Origin: Ruminococcaceae bacterium UBA5579
Lineage (GTDB): Bacteria > Bacillota > Clostridia > Oscillospirales > Ruminococcaceae
Assembly (NCBI GenBank): GCA_002425305.1
Contig: DILZ01000125.1
Span: 1-13,491, forward strand
Direction of reading: 5' to 3'
DNA: 13,491 nucleotides
In this document: positions 1,495 to 9,166 of the stretch, one piece after another
How positions within the stretch are numbered: position 1 is the stretch's first letter
Layout of the letters: every line of letters starts with the position of its first letter
Position numbers and translations under genes: made by a program
Notes under the pieces: model-generated
What the model was told of the DNA's origin: nothing
The model's input: only the letters and a program-made list of their open reading frames with translations
Databases searched by the model: none

Positions 1495-3033
1495 TCAATC
1501 GTTCGGGTCAAATACAAACGGGATCAATTCGTAAAGATCGTTTATCGTTTCTTTTGTGTAAATCTTTCCTCTGCAATGCACCTCGATTTTTTCGCTGCAT
1601 CGCCTGAACGCGCCCGATTCGATCGAGCTGAGGCTGTCGGGAAAGATGAGCGTTTTCAAATTTTTGCTGCCGTCAAACACAGAGTATCCGATTTTCTCAA
1701 CGCCTTCGGGAAGCTCGAGATATTCCAGGGCTTTGCAGTCCGCGAACACCCCGCCCCCAATTACCTTCGGAGCACCGAGAAAATTGATCTTCGTCAAGGA
1801 CGTACATCCGTTAAAGACGCCCTGTTCAAGATATATCACGCTATCGGGGATCGTCACTTCGGTGATCGTTTTGTTATACTGAAATGTATCCTTTAGGCTT
1901 TTGACGGGTTTTCCGCCGATCGTGGACGGTATCGTAACCTTTTCTTCGCTGCCGGTGTACTTGGTGATCATAGCCGCGCTTTGATCGATCTTGTTTCTAT
2001 GGTTCATATACTGGTACTCAAAATCGCCCTCGACGGCTTTTCCGTAGTAATCGACCTTGGAGGTTGTCGTTTCGGACAGCTCTTCGGGCTTGGAAACGAC
2101 CTCCGACGTGGAAACGGTAGGGACGGACGACACTGCGGGCTTAGAAACTTCCGCAGGCTTTGAAACGGTCGGCGTTGAAGTTACCGACACCGCAGGTCTT
2201 TTGCCGGAGTTGTTCAAGACAAGAACACCCGCAGTAACACCTCCGCCGACTACCGCTGCGGCGCACACGCCTGCTATTACCTTTGCTTTAACTGATTTCA
2301 ACATTGTTTTTCCTCCTTGTTTTGCGGCAGATGCCGCAGCATTTGAGGGAACGTTGTTTTGTGTTTTCGGAGGAACACTAAATTCGATCGGCACGTTCGG
2401 CACCGGAGTGTTTTCCGCTTCGAGCCTTAGCAGCTGCGTCAGCAGCGGAACAAATACGACCGCGTGCAGCCTGTCTTTGTTTTCTTCTTCATACCGCATC
2501 ACTTCCTCCTTGATTTTTAATCTGGCGGTTTTCAGACGGTACAGTACGGTTTTCTCGTGACAGTCCATAAGCTCGGCTATCTCGGCGGCGGTCATCTCGT
2601 CGAAGTAATACAGAATGATCGTTCTGTACTGCTCCTCGGACAGCGAACGCTCGATAATATCCATAATGATTTTCCGCTTTGCCATATCCGTGACGTACTC
2701 CTCGGGTATCAGCTTATCATCGGGAATATTTTCCAGCAGCTCCTCGCCGTTTTCCGCCAAATGACTGTTGGATATGGTTCTGATGTAGTTTTTGCACTTG
2801 TTCGCGGCGATCTTGTTGAGCCAGCTTTGAATGCCGCTGAAATCCGTCAGCGAGCCGAGCTTTTCAAATGCAGCGATATAAGTTTCCTGCATAACGTCCT
2901 TTGCGTTTTCCTCGTTTTTCAAAAGGTTTATGCAAGTGAACCACACGCCGCTTTTGGTCTGCTCGTAAAGGCTGTCGAACGCCGCTCTGTCACCTTTTGC
3001 CGCCAATTTTGCAAACTCCGAAATATTACTCAT
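1495..3033 (-). CDS. ECF-type sigma factor fused to a membrane helix and outside BspA-like repeats (paralog A)
   Basis: 512 residues. The sigma-70 region 2 part (about 10-85, with MQETYIAAFEKLGSL, SWLNKIAANKCKNYI) should bind core RNA polymerase and the -10 box. Region 4 (about 128-180, LSEEQYRTIILYYF, TAAEIAELMDCHEKTV) should bind the -35 box. A linker leads to one hydrophobic helix at about 252-274 (VIAGVCAAAVVGGGVTAGVL). A Thr/Pro/Val/Ser-rich stalk follows (about 278-325), then a C-terminal domain (about 365-490) with roughly four 23-residue BspA-type leucine-rich repeats such as EVTIPDSVIYLEQGVFNGC. Predicted topology is sigma inside, repeats outside. No separate anti-sigma gene is adjacent, and no HxxxCxxC zinc anti-sigma motif is visible. 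The start is set by GGAGGA six bases before ATG. An internal ribosome site and ATG at residue 244 could yield the membrane part alone. Family assignment is firm; sensing by the ectodomain is inference. Confidence 0.9.
   Translation of the reverse strand: MSNISEFAKLAAKGDRAAFDSLYEQTKSGVWFTCINLLKNEENAKDVMQETYIAAFEKLGSLTDFSGIQSWLNKIAANKCKNYIRTISNSHLAENGEELLENIPDDKLIPEEYVTDMAKRKIIMDIIERSLSEEQYRTIILYYFDEMTAAEIAELMDCHEKTVLYRLKTARLKIKEEVMRYEEENKDRLHAVVFVPLLTQLLRLEAENTPVPNVPIEFSVPPKTQNNVPSNAAASAAKQGGKTMLKSVKAKVIAGVCAAAVVGGGVTAGVLVLNNSGKRPAVSVTSTPTVSKPAEVSKPAVSSVPTVSTSEVVSKPEELSETTTSKVDYYGKAVEGDFEYQYMNHRNKIDQSAAMITKYTGSEEKVTIPSTIGGKPVKSLKDTFQYNKTITEVTIPDSVIYLEQGVFNGCTSLTKINFLGAPKVIGGGVFADCKALEYLELPEGVEKIGYSVFDGSKNLKTLIFPDSLSSIESGAFRRCSEKIEVHCRGKIYTKETINDLYELIPFVFDPND
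2302..2318 (-). promoter_or_regulatory. Internal ribosome site and ATG at the sigma/membrane junction of paralog A
   Basis: On the minus strand, AAGGAGGA (complement of 2311-2318) stands 6 nt before an in-frame ATG (complement of 2302-2304), which is codon 244. Initiation here would make a 269-residue membrane protein (1495-2304) starting MLKSVKAKVIAG, without the sigma domains. The same arrangement is at the same codon of the paralog. Use of this start is inference. Confidence 0.45.
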
Positions 3034-3067
3034 TGGGCTTCCTCCGATTTACACTTTGTTCCCCTTT

Positions 3068-3073
3068 ATTATA
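3068..3073 (-). promoter_or_regulatory. Probable -10 box of sigma-fusion gene A
   Basis: TATAAT on the minus strand (ATTATA at 3068-3073) lies 35 bp before the ATG, with no good -35 at 17 bp (TCTTTT). From the -10 box through the ribosome site the sequence is nearly identical to that of the paralog, while the DNA further upstream is not. A weak -35 may mean an activator or another sigma factor is needed. Confidence 0.5.
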
Positions 3074-3168
3074 ACACATCTCAAAAAAGAAAAAGATAAA
3101 CATTTTTAAAAAAAATTTTTTCCGGCGTTGGGGAGAGAAAAGGAAGAAACCGAGATTTTACAACATAA

Positions 3169-3197
3169 TTCCCGCAGCTAGTAAATAGCTGCGGGAA
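3169..3197 (-). terminator. Hairpin after sigma-fusion gene B
   Basis: TTCCCGCAGCTA (3169-3180) pairs perfectly with TAGCTGCGGGAA (3186-3197) around GTAAA. It lies 43 bases past the minus-strand stop at 3241. The following minus-strand bases (TTATGTTGT) are only moderately T-rich, so it is a plausible but not ideal intrinsic terminator separating the two paralogs. Confidence 0.6.
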
Positions 3198-3240
3198 AGT
3201 TTTATGAATTTGTGAGCTTTAACGCTATGCCGCTTTTAGG

Positions 3241-4965
3241 TCAGTTGTTTGAGTTGTCGCTGCTTGTATCGCTGCTTTCGCTGTTGGCACTTGTATCACC
3301 GTTCGAGCTGACGCTGCTTGCATTACTGTTTGCACTATCGCTGCTTGTGCCGCCGCCCAAGTATTGCGCAATTTCGTCAACGGGGAATGTCTGGCCGTTG
3401 AAAGTCAATTTTCCGTCCAGAAGTTTAAAACTCTCCATATCATCTTCCGTGAAAACATACCCCCTGTAATGCAGCTCACATTCAGGACAATTAACGATCG
3501 GATAACTAAATATGGTTTCTATGCTGTCCGGAACAACCACTTTTTTCAGATTCTTGCAGTTTACAATAGCAGCGTCCATCAGTACCCTGGTCGATTCCGG
3601 AAGCATCAAGCTTTCCAGGCTGTTGCATTCGTTAAAACCTTTAGTAGCGATTTTGTCCAGCGTCTCGGGCAAACGGACGTACTTTAAATTTTCGAGGGTG
3701 CGAAAGCAATCGTATCCTATATCGGTCACGCCGTCGGGAATATACACACCCTTTATATTATTGTTAAAAGAAAATCCCTGCATATACACAACGGTCTTTC
3801 CGTCTATGGTTTTGGGGATCTTAACATATTCCGCTTTTCCGAGGTATTTTGAAATGCGGATCTCGCCTTCCTGCTCCACATTATTGACAGTATGCCGGCT
3901 GGTTTTAAAATCCTCAGCCGAAGCCGTCGGGATAAGGTCCCACATAACCTCGCCCGTTTCCGAAATCGGGTTTTCCGGGAACTCCGTCGGCTCGTTTACA
4001 ATAGACTGCGTTGGCACGCTTTCGGTGGCCGAGCTTTCGGCGGGCTTTGAGGTGATATTTGCGGGCGTGGAAGCGTTTGTGGGCTTTGAAACGTCCGCCG
4101 ACGCGCTGACAGCGGGTGTGCTTGTCGTATTGTTTTTGGAACTGTTCGAGATAACGACCCCGGCGGTAACTCCGCCGCCGACTACCGCCGCAGCGCAAGC
4201 GCCCGCAATAATTTTTGCTTTAAGTGTGTTAAGCATTGTTTTTCCTCCTTGTTTTGCGGCAGATGCCGCAGCATTTGAGGGAACGCTTTTTTGTGTATTC
4301 GGAGGAACATTGAATTTGATAGGTACGTTCGGCACCGAAGTGTTTTCCGCTTCGAGCCTGAGCAGCTGCGTCAGCAGCGGAACAAATACGACAGCGTGCA
4401 GTCTGTCTTTATTTTTTTCTTCATACCGCATCACTTCCTCCTTGATCTTTAATCTGGCGGTTTTCAGACGGTACAGCACGGTTTTCCTGTGGCAGTCCAT
4501 AAGTTCGGCTATCTCGGCAGCGGTCATTTCATCGAAGTAGTAGAGGATTATCGTCCTGTACTGCTCCTCTGACAGCGATTTTTCGATAATATCCATAATT
4601 ATCTTACGCTTTGCCATATCCGTGACGTATTCCTCGGGTATCAGTTTATCGTCCGGGATATTTTCAAGAATCTCCTCGCTGTCCTCCACCAACGCGCTGT
4701 TGGACTTGGATTTGATGTAGTTTTTGCACTTGTTCGCCGCTATCCTGTTGAGCCAGCTTTGAACTCCGCTGAAATCCGTCAGCGAGCTGAGATTTTCAAA
4801 CGCCGCGAGATAAGTGTCCTGCATAATATCCTTTGCGTTTTCCTCGTTTTTCAAAAGGTTTATGCAGGTGAACCACACGCCGCTTTTGGTCTGCTCGTAA
4901 AGGCTGTCGAACGCCGCTCTGTCACCTTTTGCCGCCAATTTTGCAAACTCCGAAATATTACTCAT
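3241..4965 (-). CDS. ECF-type sigma factor fused to a membrane helix and outside BspA-like repeats (paralog B)
   Basis: 574 residues, the upstream member of a tandem pair. Residues 1-243 match paralog A at about nine in ten positions by eye, with the first 46 residues identical and no gaps: region 2 at about 10-85, region 4 at about 128-180. The membrane helix is at about 252-272 (IIAGACAAAVVGGGVTAGVV). A Ser/Thr/Pro-rich stalk (about 275-340) follows. The C-terminal part diverges strongly: BspA-like repeats at about 378-500 (GVYIPDGVTDIGYDCFRTL, YVRLPETLDKIATKGFNEC), a conserved HYRGYVFTEDDM segment resembling HCRGKIYTKETI of paralog A, then an extra Ser/Asn/Asp-rich low-complexity tail (540-574). 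The start has the same GGAGGA site. The codon-244 ATG again follows an internal AAGGAGG. Sigma activity is well supported by family; the membrane tether and signal are inferred. Duplication followed by divergence of the outside domain is the likely history. Confidence 0.9.
   Translation of the reverse strand: MSNISEFAKLAAKGDRAAFDSLYEQTKSGVWFTCINLLKNEENAKDIMQDTYLAAFENLSSLTDFSGVQSWLNRIAANKCKNYIKSKSNSALVEDSEEILENIPDDKLIPEEYVTDMAKRKIIMDIIEKSLSEEQYRTIILYYFDEMTAAEIAELMDCHRKTVLYRLKTARLKIKEEVMRYEEKNKDRLHAVVFVPLLTQLLRLEAENTSVPNVPIKFNVPPNTQKSVPSNAAASAAKQGGKTMLNTLKAKIIAGACAAAVVGGGVTAGVVISNSSKNNTTSTPAVSASADVSKPTNASTPANITSKPAESSATESVPTQSIVNEPTEFPENPISETGEVMWDLIPTASAEDFKTSRHTVNNVEQEGEIRISKYLGKAEYVKIPKTIDGKTVVYMQGFSFNNNIKGVYIPDGVTDIGYDCFRTLENLKYVRLPETLDKIATKGFNECNSLESLMLPESTRVLMDAAIVNCKNLKKVVVPDSIETIFSYPIVNCPECELHYRGYVFTEDDMESFKLLDGKLTFNGQTFPVDEIAQYLGGGTSSDSANSNASSVSSNGDTSANSESSDTSSDNSNN
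4234..4250 (-). promoter_or_regulatory. Internal ribosome site and ATG at the sigma/membrane junction of paralog B
   Basis: Minus-strand AAGGAGGA (complement of 4243-4250) is 6 nt before an in-frame ATG (complement of 4234-4236), again codon 244. The separate product would be 331 residues (3241-4236) starting MLNTLKAKIIAG. The match in position, spacing and bases to paralog A may be selection or just recent common descent. Confidence 0.45.
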
Positions 4966-4999: not shown

Positions 5000-5005
5000 A
5001 TTATA
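5000..5005 (-). promoter_or_regulatory. Probable -10 box of sigma-fusion gene B
   Basis: TATAAT on the minus strand (ATTATA at 5000-5005), 35 bp before the ATG as in the paralog. The -35 region at 17 bp (TCCCTT) is poor. The remainder of 5006-5132 holds hairpins at 5073-5102 and 5102-5117 (GAGTAT-TTAT-ATACTC) and no gene that I can support. Confidence 0.5.
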
Positions 5006-5072
5006 ACAACTCAATAAGGAGAAAGGGATAAACTTTAAAAATACTTTTTCTAAGGACATATTGATTTAATGG

Positions 5073-5254: not shown

Positions 5255-5533
5255 TCAGTTTTCGCCTCTCTGCTTTGCAAAGCACTCGCTGCACAATACG
5301 GGTCTGTCGCCCTTAGGCTCAAACGGTACTTTCGCAACGCCGCCGCACACTGCACAGGTTGCCTCGTAAAACGTTCTCGGACCTCTTCCCGCATTCTTCT
5401 TCGCATCGCGGCAAGCCTTGCATCTCTGAGGCTCGTTTTCAAAACCTTTCTCTGCGTAGAATTCCTGCTCGCCCGCAGTAAAAACGAAGTCTGCGCCGCA
5501 GTCTTTACATTTCAGTGTCTTGTCTGTGTACAT
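5255..5533 (-). CDS. Small double zinc-ribbon protein (zf-trcl type)
   Basis: 92 residues with two four-cysteine zinc sites. The first is C9-x2-C12 with C38-x2-C41, surrounding an aromatic, charged stretch (FVFTAGEQEFYAEKGFENEP) typical of the zf-trcl family of putative zinc ribbons. The second is C60-x2-C63 with C81-x2-C84, enclosing VPFEPKGDRPVLC, a pattern seen in small CxxC proteins of Firmicutes. It is cytosolic with no signal or membrane segment. The exact function is not known for this family; nucleic-acid or protein binding is the usual guess. AAGAGG precedes the ATG by 7 nt. No promoter is visible in the 28 bases between it and the tRNA-like element, so it is probably transcribed from the sigma promoter at 6264-6292. 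Confidence 0.85.
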   Translation of the reverse strand: MYTDKTLKCKDCGADFVFTAGEQEFYAEKGFENEPQRCKACRDAKKNAGRGPRTFYEATCAVCGGVAKVPFEPKGDRPVLCSECFAKQRGEN

Positions 5534-5651: not shown

Positions 5652-6215
5652 TTACAGGTACTCATTGCAAAACTTACGCAGCTTTGCCCTTGCCCGTGTG
5701 ACAGCATTGTCGACCGCTTTTCTGTCTATCTTCAGCTTCTCCGCGATCTCGCTGTAGGAAAGCCCCATCATCACGCCCTCCATACACCGAAACTCCAACG
5801 CGGTGAGGTTTGTGCGCATATTTTGCAACAGCACGGCTCTGCTTTCACGATCGATAACTATCTCCTCGGGAGTGGGCTTCGTATCGGGGATCTCTGCCAA
5901 TTCCTCGGAATCTGTTTCAAAAACGAGATTTTTCCGCCGCAAAGACCTTCTCGCAGTGTTTTTCAGCCTGTTATCAATACATATGTAAGCATAAGCGGAG
6001 AACTCGCCCTTTTCGGCGTCATAGCCGCGAATCGCCGCCATAAGCGCCTGCATTCCATCGCTTACAAGCTCCTCGTGATCCGCTGTGCCGGAATATCTTG
6101 AAGCGGCTGCAAACACCACGTTCATATACCGCGAGATAAGCTCTTCCAGCTTTCCGTTATCGGCGGAATAATTATCGAGAAGCTCACGATCGCTCATCTG
6201 CGAATGATCCGCCAT
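5652..6215 (-). CDS. SigH-like sigma-70 family RNA polymerase sigma factor
   Basis: 187 residues. Region 2 (about 20-95) contains ELISRYMNVVFAAASRY, HEELVSDGMQALMAAIRGYD and GEFSAYAYICIDNRLKN, the core-binding and -10-recognition helices. A short linker with TPEEIVIDRES, close to the NPEEMIINQE linker of sporulation factor SigH, leads to region 4 (about 130-187: LTALEFRCMEGVMMGLSYSE, IAEKLKIDRKAVDNAVTRAR). This pattern matches SigH-type factors better than ECF factors, though it is somewhat shorter than Bacillus SigH (about 218). It may control stationary-phase or early sporulation-type genes; whether this organism sporulates cannot be told. ATG 6215 has AAGGAGA at the right distance and a strong promoter. 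It probably heads a transcript with the tRNA-like element and the zinc-ribbon gene. Confidence 0.88.
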   Translation of the reverse strand: MADHSQMSDRELLDNYSADNGKLEELISRYMNVVFAAASRYSGTADHEELVSDGMQALMAAIRGYDAEKGEFSAYAYICIDNRLKNTARRSLRRKNLVFETDSEELAEIPDTKPTPEEIVIDRESRAVLLQNMRTNLTALEFRCMEGVMMGLSYSEIAEKLKIDRKAVDNAVTRARAKLRKFCNEYL

Positions 6216-8920: not shown

Positions 8921-9166
8921 ATGCTGGATAAAACAATGACCTTCTCGGTTCACGAGGACAGAGAAAACGAGATGAAGGATATCCTCACGACCGTTTACGA
9001 CGCTTTGAAGCAGAAGGGTTATAATCCGATAAATCAATTGGTAGGTTATATCCTGTCGGAGGACCCTACATATATCACCACCTTCAACAACGCGCGCGGT
9101 CTTATTCGTCATATCGACAGGGACGAGCTTTTGCAGGTGCTGGTCAAATCTTACCTCACAGATTGA
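8921..9166 (+). CDS. ireB: IreB-family regulatory phosphoprotein (UPF0297)
   Basis: 81 residues, full length for the family. The sequence starts [20 protein letters not shown] and contains [39 protein letters not shown] and the C-terminal [12 protein letters not shown], all characteristic. In Enterococcus faecalis IreB is a target of the Ser/Thr kinase IreK and phosphatase IreP and affects cephalosporin tolerance. That role is established there and only inferred here. AGAAAGGA precedes the ATG by about 9 nt. In many Firmicutes the gene lies with alaS, ruvX (yqgF) and a DUF1292 gene; here it stands alone, with its own promoter, a 184-nt leader and a strong terminator. Confidence 0.92.

Follow-up and report, generated by a model that had tools for sequence, protein, structure and literature searches.

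Tandem sigma factor-sensor fusions with a conserved internal ribosome-binding site and start codon in a Ruminococcaceae bacterium

Architecture of the fused genes and their relatives

Two neighbouring open reading frames (ORFs), here called genes 1 and 2, can be found on the minus strand of a 13,491-nucleotide (nt) contig of Ruminococcaceae bacterium UBA5579, an uncultured Clostridia-type bacterium; this whole stretch (DILZ01000125.1, assembly GCA_002425305.1) is the window referred to below. Each encodes, in a single chain, an extracytoplasmic function (ECF) sigma factor, one membrane segment, a Ser/Thr/Pro stalk and an outside domain of BspA-type leucine-rich repeats (LRR; LRR_5 in Pfam), as stated in the original prediction, with which both the Pfam matches and the hydrophobicity profiles agree (Table 1). 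By sequence comparison, this layout recurs in relatives, different outer modules are carried by a conserved chassis of sigma part and membrane segment, and a strong ribosome site with an in-frame start codon can be recognized inside the gene.

The domains PF04542 (Sigma70_r2), PF08281 (Sigma70_r4_2) and LRR_5 all score above their Pfam cut-offs in both products, which by their regions 2 and 4 are ECF (group 4) sigma factors predicted to bind RNA polymerase. The single hydrophobic segment, with lysines ahead of it and Asn/Ser after it, is found at about the same position in 121 of 121 proteins (the listed relatives and the window proteins, many of them near copies). Between the sigma part and this segment, the structural model made for gene 2 places a helix at residues 195-208 (block predicted local distance difference test, pLDDT, 64 and 87), and in 39 proteins the linker has a mean conservation of 0.65 at residues 184-214 vs 0.39 at residues 215-238. 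Regarding the ectodomain, the nearest solved folds are TpLRR (6mlx) and BACOVA_04585 (4fs7); it belongs with the BspA-type LRR_5 surface proteins, the repeats here forming the outer end of a sigma factor chain. The relative P0003, a representative of the other ectodomain class, has a propeller fold.

Table 1. Features of the two fused genes and their surroundings (window coordinates)
Feature	Position	Strand	Size or basis
Gene 1: sigma, membrane segment, stalk, LRR_5	1495..3033	-	512 aa
Gene 2: sigma, membrane segment, stalk, LRR_5, Ser/Asn tail	3241..4965	-	574 aa
Gene 1 ECF sigma part, residues 1-183	2485..3033	-	Pfam Sigma70_r2, r4_2; NCBIfam TIGR02937 79.4 bits, cut-off 42.9
Gene 2 ECF sigma part, residues 1-183	4417..4965	-	Pfam Sigma70_r2, r4_2; TIGR02937 76.5 bits, cut-off 42.9
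Gene 1 conserved helix, residues 195-208 by alignment, candidate internal inhibitor	2410..2451	-	gap-free alignment with gene 2
Gene 2 conserved helix, residues 195-208, candidate internal inhibitor	4342..4383	-	helix in predicted model; conservation
Gene 1 internal Shine-Dalgarno AAGGAGG	2312..2318	-	
Gene 1 internal in-frame start codon ATG (Met244)	2302..2304	-	
Gene 2 internal Shine-Dalgarno AAGGAGG	4244..4250	-	
Gene 2 internal in-frame start codon ATG (Met244)	4234..4236	-	
Gene 1 membrane segment, about residues 253-275	2209..2277	-	Kyte-Doolittle mean 2.09
Gene 2 membrane segment, about residues 252-273	4147..4212	-	Kyte-Doolittle mean 1.92; pLDDT <50 in model
Gene 1 Ser/Thr/Pro stalk	2044..2202	-	sequence
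Gene 2 Ser/Thr/Pro stalk	3946..4137	-	sequence; pLDDT <50 in residues 285-326
Gene 1 LRR_5 domain, residues 382-480	1594..1890	-	PF13306, E 6.6e-22
Gene 2 LRR_5 domain	3487..3777	-	PF13306, E 1.4e-17
Ser/Asn-rich tail, gene 2 only	3244..3348	-	sequence
Gene 1 putative ECF-like promoter (TTTATC...TGTTATA)	3070..3100	-	
Gene 2 putative ECF-like promoter (TTTATC...TGTTATA)	5002..5032	-	
12-pair inverted repeat between genes 1 and 2, possible terminator or boundary	3169..3197	.	weak

A protein search with residues 1-290 as query, restricted to 0.55-1.75 times the query length, returned 1450 proteins, the best 120 of which were listed. At the level of genomes, with the own genome counted each time, the genus has matches in 7 of 43 and the family in 30 of 297 (both at E 1e-20); a second query (E 1e-25) finds them in 38 of 396 genomes of the family, and a third (E 1e-30) in 15 of 394 genomes of the order. 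Scoring in the family and order searches was limited to the best 6 or 8 candidates of each genome; the majority of genomes in the group have no match at these cut-offs. All 12 genus matches outside the own genome are fused (open frames of 520-802 aa) and so are most of the listed family matches, a few frames of 175-292 aa being separate or cut sigma factors. Relatives known by name include an Oscillospiraceae bacterium, Ruminococcaceae bacterium UBA7135, the Clostridia genome 'Lapin-013', Ruminococcus bromii and Ruminococcus bicirculans. The one-protein signalling layout foreseen in the original prediction is thus borne out by Pfam domains, folds and fusion in the genus, and its two halves are not always separate in relatives; a fusion created by error is ruled out by the same fusion in other genomes of the family and order. 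No split relative of the fused clade was met among the loci inspected, a dedicated search not having been made, and the sigma factors of three two-gene pairs (L019, L092 and L076/L077) are distant from that clade. In each of two genomes (G154 and G232) the sigma query matches five or six times, the longest open frame reaching 1,161 aa.

One-piece sigma factors of this general kind are known. According to one review, IutY is a sigma factor joined to its membrane partner and set free by Prc and RseP, and ECF48, ECF52 and ECF53 have membrane extensions; a second review counts up to 18 ECF groups with regulatory extensions. SCO4117 of Streptomyces coelicolor (ECF52) combines a zinc finger with a transmembrane region, a Pro-rich stretch and a carbohydrate-binding module. 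IutY of Pseudomonas putida (ECF243) is cleaved in two steps, its sigma domain being released by Prc and RseP. Like the present group, ECF52 unites a sigma domain, a transmembrane region, a Pro-rich extension and a binding module outside the cell on a single polypeptide, and positive autoregulation has been suggested for it. It differs in its zinc finger and carbohydrate-binding module and in being reported from Actinobacteria only, whereas the present group has LRR_5 or a beta-propeller and no zinc finger was found. IutY likewise unites sigma factor and membrane partner in one polypeptide with a membrane segment, but works through a periplasmic anti-sigma domain and an outer-membrane receptor, whereas the present group carries its own large sensor on a stalk.

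Zinc-finger matches are absent from P0001 and P0002 (E up to 0.1) and from the 15 families matched by 34 aligned members (E up to 0.01), and no carbohydrate-binding module was found outside, where LRR_5 or, in P0003, the propeller stands instead. The periplasmic anti-sigma domain of IutY is of the FecR type, and no Pfam match to such a domain was obtained in the window proteins or the aligned members. Since none of these three modules was found, the group is filed neither with the Actinobacterial ECF52 nor with the Pseudomonas IutY, which are its nearest described kinds. The original prediction could name no described group with this layout; this holds for the present group, no description of which appeared in search listings of the open-access PubMed Central (PMC) literature, nor of any sigma factor gene with an internal start, but not for the one-piece kind as such, described for ECF52 and IutY. 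A canonical ECF sigma factor with a separate membrane anti-sigma gene also has its sigma inside and its sensor outside, but in two genes; L019 and L092 of the same genome resemble such pairs. The absence of a nearby anti-sigma gene, also predicted, agrees with the nine window proteins scanned out of all window ORFs, in none of which an anti-sigma domain was named.

By analogy with these relatives, the sigma part may be released by proteolysis. A site-2 protease (M50) homolog is present in the genome as it is in 14 of 14 controls, and therefore supports proteolysis weakly. A sigma factor active while tethered, as are the membrane-bound regulators CadC and ToxR, would bind RNA polymerase at the membrane once a ligand altered its shape or pairing, with no cleavage; the conserved helix and spacer between sigma part and membrane could relay such a conformational signal, and the want of an anti-sigma domain in the proteins scanned also fits. 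However, the two well-described one-piece relatives are thought or shown to need their extension removed, and the tethered-active form appears unlikely.

A probable internal start ahead of the membrane segment

In both genes the peptide GGKTM ahead of the membrane segment is encoded by AAGGAGG, seven bases (AAAAACA) and ATG, that is, by a Shine-Dalgarno (SD) sequence and an in-frame start codon that had gone unnoticed in the original prediction. A membrane-segment filter was passed by 71 distinct fused genes with DNA, 55 of which reach their stop codon within the retrieved sequence. Of the 71, 21 combine a strong SD with an in-frame start at this place, and 20 of these 21 fall in one clade of 23 (support 82/56; 98/80 and 95/88 for its two halves). 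Two losses suffice to explain the three clade genes in which the internal start is missing (L038, L039 and L090), where GGAGG is absent too. In the distant fused sigma gene L061 (genome G174), outside the clade, the internal SD is encoded by Lys-Glu-Ala and not Gly-Gly, possibly an independent origin.

Within these 20 clade genes, GGA is used for the two Gly residues in 19 of 19 and 19 of 20 cases, respectively, and their codons are the least variable of 48 conserved columns with at least fourfold degeneracy (median 1.42 bits). The preceding codon ends in A in 18 of 20 genes, across five different residues encoded in those 18, and the sole gene of 20 that lacks the internal Met has TTG at the start position. 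GGAGG and the start are 7 nt apart in 16 genes, with a spacing of 10 nt in two others and of 4 nt in the last two. An earlier gene set that overlaps in part with this one had a strong SD ahead of an in-frame ATG in 17 of 29 cases near the membrane segment vs 7 of 445 elsewhere, and Gly-Gly elsewhere was encoded by GGAGGA in 5 of 111. Calculated pairing with the 16S rRNA tail is -9.5 kcal/mol or stronger at 20 of 20 internal sites (median -10.3), compared with medians of -9.3 for 19 main starts, of which that of L051 at least is probably misplaced, and -3.3 for 180 control ATGs, 11 of which are as strong as the weakest internal site. The chance of GGAGG in 20 of 20 genes would be about 10^-9.8 under the assumption, not valid here, that the genes are independent. 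Directly ahead of the membrane segment, these sequences thus have a strong, conserved ribosome site and an in-frame start codon, which suggests that each gene also makes a sensor-only protein. Database proteins starting exactly at the internal Met (17 among 30 of 92 matches) all come from contigs of 1.0-5.8 kb; they may be cut genes and were set aside as evidence. The same coding strategy is described for two-polypeptide phage endolysin genes, where an in-frame internal start yields a full-length and a C-terminal protein able to co-assemble; the proteins are unrelated and the analogy concerns the strategy only.

The same kind of site can be seen by eye in two of eight sigma-adjacent membrane genes of the own genome. 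One belongs to a two-gene pair of sigma factor and membrane protein (L019/L100, G000:C113, about 752-1405), with AAAAGGAGGGCTGTTTTTATG in frame directly ahead of a similar membrane segment; the other is an anti-sigma-like membrane gene beside a sigma gene (L092, G000:C67, 1687-2811), with AAAGGAGGATATTATG in frame before its membrane segment. No relative of either was found in the 297 family genomes beyond their own at the cut-offs used.

An SD-like sequence could also serve to pause the ribosome and thereby aid insertion of the membrane segment, no second protein being made. This would suit its place directly ahead of that segment in all 20 carrier genes of the clade, but a start codon persists at a distance of 4, 7 or 10 nt downstream though the residues change, with TTG where Met is replaced, and the three genes devoid of the start codon are devoid of GGAGG as well; pausing alone is accordingly given a low probability. 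Somewhat less credible again is a leftover from the fusion of a sigma gene with a downstream membrane-sensor gene, without a present role, for which the L019 pair with AAAAGGAGGGCTGTTTTTATG before a similar membrane segment provides a possible model. Such a relic would be expected to decay at synonymous sites, but GGA GGA is kept where other degenerate codons vary.

Outer modules, promoters and neighbouring genes

The first 243 residues and membrane helix of the two products had been called nearly identical; they are indeed alike, though the wording is a little strong, with residue identities of 90.7% at 1-183, 87.5% at 184-239 and 75.7% at 240-276, which include the membrane segment. Beyond residue 276, 33.5% of aligned residues are identical, so that the predicted strong difference of stalks and repeats is confirmed, as is the extra Ser/Asn tail of one protein. 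Synonymous divergence (dS) between the genes amounts to 0.41 for the sigma part, 0.19 for the linker that follows, 0.81 for the surroundings of the membrane segment and about 2.3 outside. This last value is to be read as 'saturated', since the proportion of synonymous differences there (pS 0.71) has almost reached its maximum and the alignment, with 33.5% identity, is uncertain. The corresponding nonsynonymous values (dN) are 0.05, 0.06, 0.14 and 0.74. The sigma and repeat halves therefore differ in substitution rate, also at synonymous sites.

Explicit labels of ectodomain class were placed on a sigma tree of 41 proteins, 17 of LRR and 24 of propeller class, from the first 43 without P0005 and P0018, which belong to neither class; an ectodomain tree had merged the two, probably through the shared stalk. 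The classes alternate with seven label changes, at least five of them forced by well-supported branches, vs a mean of 13 with shuffled labels, so that they are clustered but by no means separated. One pair, P0026 (LRR) and P0030 (propeller class), has sigma parts identical at 185 of 185 positions and 97.8% identity over the 89 positions up to the membrane segment, with 25% outside. Because dS is near saturation outside and not in the sigma part, and because P0026 and P0030, whose sigma halves are identical, carry outer modules of different class, the ectodomains have probably been exchanged rather than merely diverged; in terms of sequence, the pattern may reflect exchange of the outer module, homogenization of the sigma half, or both. 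Chimeric metagenome contigs could account for some single cases but hardly for the whole of it. A cluster of this family (L021, G000:C125) holds LRR and propeller-class ectodomain pieces, with stretches of N at the places where near-identical sigma halves ought to lie.

The origin put forward in the original prediction, simple tandem duplication followed by fast adaptive divergence of the sensors for new specificity, would explain adjacent genes with like sigma halves and unlike outsides but is improbable and fits poorly, since dS should then be similar along the gene and is about fivefold higher outside, as dN is far higher too, and since the sigma tree has LRR and propeller-class forms in alternation. 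Fast positive selection alone is likewise disfavoured by the far higher outside dS, with the stated reserve on pS and alignment.

Upstream of the two genes, the predicted near identity of the DNA from the -10 region to the start is confirmed (2 of 42 positions differ) and extends to a putative -35 element. In the inner clade, all ten genes with upstream DNA show by eye TTTATC, 17-18 nt and (C/T)GT(C/T); five genes of the sister group show CCAACC, 16 nt and (C/T)GTC, the latter pattern being of the usual ECF type, and in the other seven clade genes neither pattern is visibly complete by eye. A scan of the genome with the strict pattern gives four sites, each 36-39 nt ahead of a fused sigma gene (contig C11 twice, C125 and C139), and none in a reversed control; the relaxed pattern gives 13 sites vs 2. 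Beyond the four sigma genes, only one relaxed site (C68) lies within 260 nt of an ORF of at least 60 aa with a ribosome site, 102 nt before an ORF that is presumably HisA-like, and another (C83) is at a contig end. With one judged extra ORF from the relaxed pattern, no regulon is claimed. A sigma-70 promoter scan found no site at the starts of genes 1 and 2. The upstream likeness and the strict scan agree with the earlier proposal that both sigma factors may read the same promoters, the promoter type being probably shared, and autoregulation with a shared specificity among the four promoter-bearing sigma genes would follow naturally.

With regard to the surroundings, a third sigma factor, SigH-like, is found upstream of gene 2 on the same strand (5652-6215, minus), matching TIGR02937 with 90.1 bits, followed by SigH models below their cut-offs. 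The zinc-finger protein zf_Tbcl (5255-5533) lies between it and gene 2. The gene of the regulatory phosphoprotein IreB (8921-9166, plus), ahead of a periplasmic-binding-protein gene (from 9451), looks ordinary, and the ORFs after it presumably belong to a branched-chain amino-acid ABC (ATP-binding cassette) transporter, which they resemble. Terminator-like sites number 11 in the region vs 6.0 in shuffles, and the evidence from the inverted repeat between genes 1 and 2 is therefore weak.

A tethered sigma-sensor and its possible sensor-only partner

In the proposed mechanism, a cytoplasmic ECF sigma factor would be joined through the conserved helix and one membrane segment to the stalk and an outside sensor, LRR in genes 1 and 2 and beta-propeller in relatives, and would be kept inactive at the membrane. 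Following an outside event, the ectodomain would be cleaved first and the membrane segment next, which would free the sigma factor as in IutY. Once freed, it would read the promoter of its own gene and of some paralogs, so that different sensors could feed one specificity with positive feedback. From the internal start, a sigma-less protein of membrane segment and ectodomain would be made, which may partner the full-length form or compete with it for ligand or protease and so set the threshold of the response.

Several observations weigh against this scheme. No anti-sigma domain is recognized by Pfam between sigma part and membrane in the proteins scanned, so that inhibition by the tether or by the conserved helix is a guess. 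The clade of internal-start genes is weakly supported, two of its 20 carriers have a spacing of just 4 nt, and, given Gly-Gly, codon choice alone yields GGAGG with a chance of 0.20-0.59 per gene. The internal start is absent from 3 of 23 clade genes and from 47 of the 48 other fused genes with DNA, and in view of the latter it is not required for the basic layout. Regarding the outer module, near-identical sigma halves may cause metagenome contigs to be joined wrongly, so that single cases of exchange carry less weight, and the clustering of the classes on the tree implies that exchange is not free. The strict promoter precedes 4 of 6 sigma halves in this incomplete genome (the copies on C110 and C142 lack it), and no strict target other than the four sigma genes is present.

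Tethering, proteolytic release and self-amplification remain the favoured and most likely mode of working, which the sensor-only product would tune. Taken as a whole, from tether and proteolysis to self-directed promoter and sensor-only product, the scheme is held with slightly more belief than doubt. It seems fairly probable that these are one-gene, two-protein systems, in which a tethered ECF sigma-sensor is accompanied by a sigma-less sensor copy from a selected internal start; the sensor cassette would be exchanged among paralogs, the sigma part, membrane segment, internal start and self-directed promoter staying much alike, and many signals would converge on one specificity with a built-in decoy or partner.

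Such a modular design is a natural template for engineered receptors. Ruminococcus bromii and Ruminococcus bicirculans are gut bacteria, and LRR and propeller ectodomains may, at a guess, sense surfaces of the host, food or neighbours. With the present genes, the range of one-piece membrane sigma factors comes to include Clostridia-type bacteria, in which the sensor appears to be swapped as a module. To our knowledge, no earlier sigma factor gene makes its own sensor-only partner, and none was found in open-access PMC listings; if the internal start is used, these genes would constitute a simple and testable threshold device.

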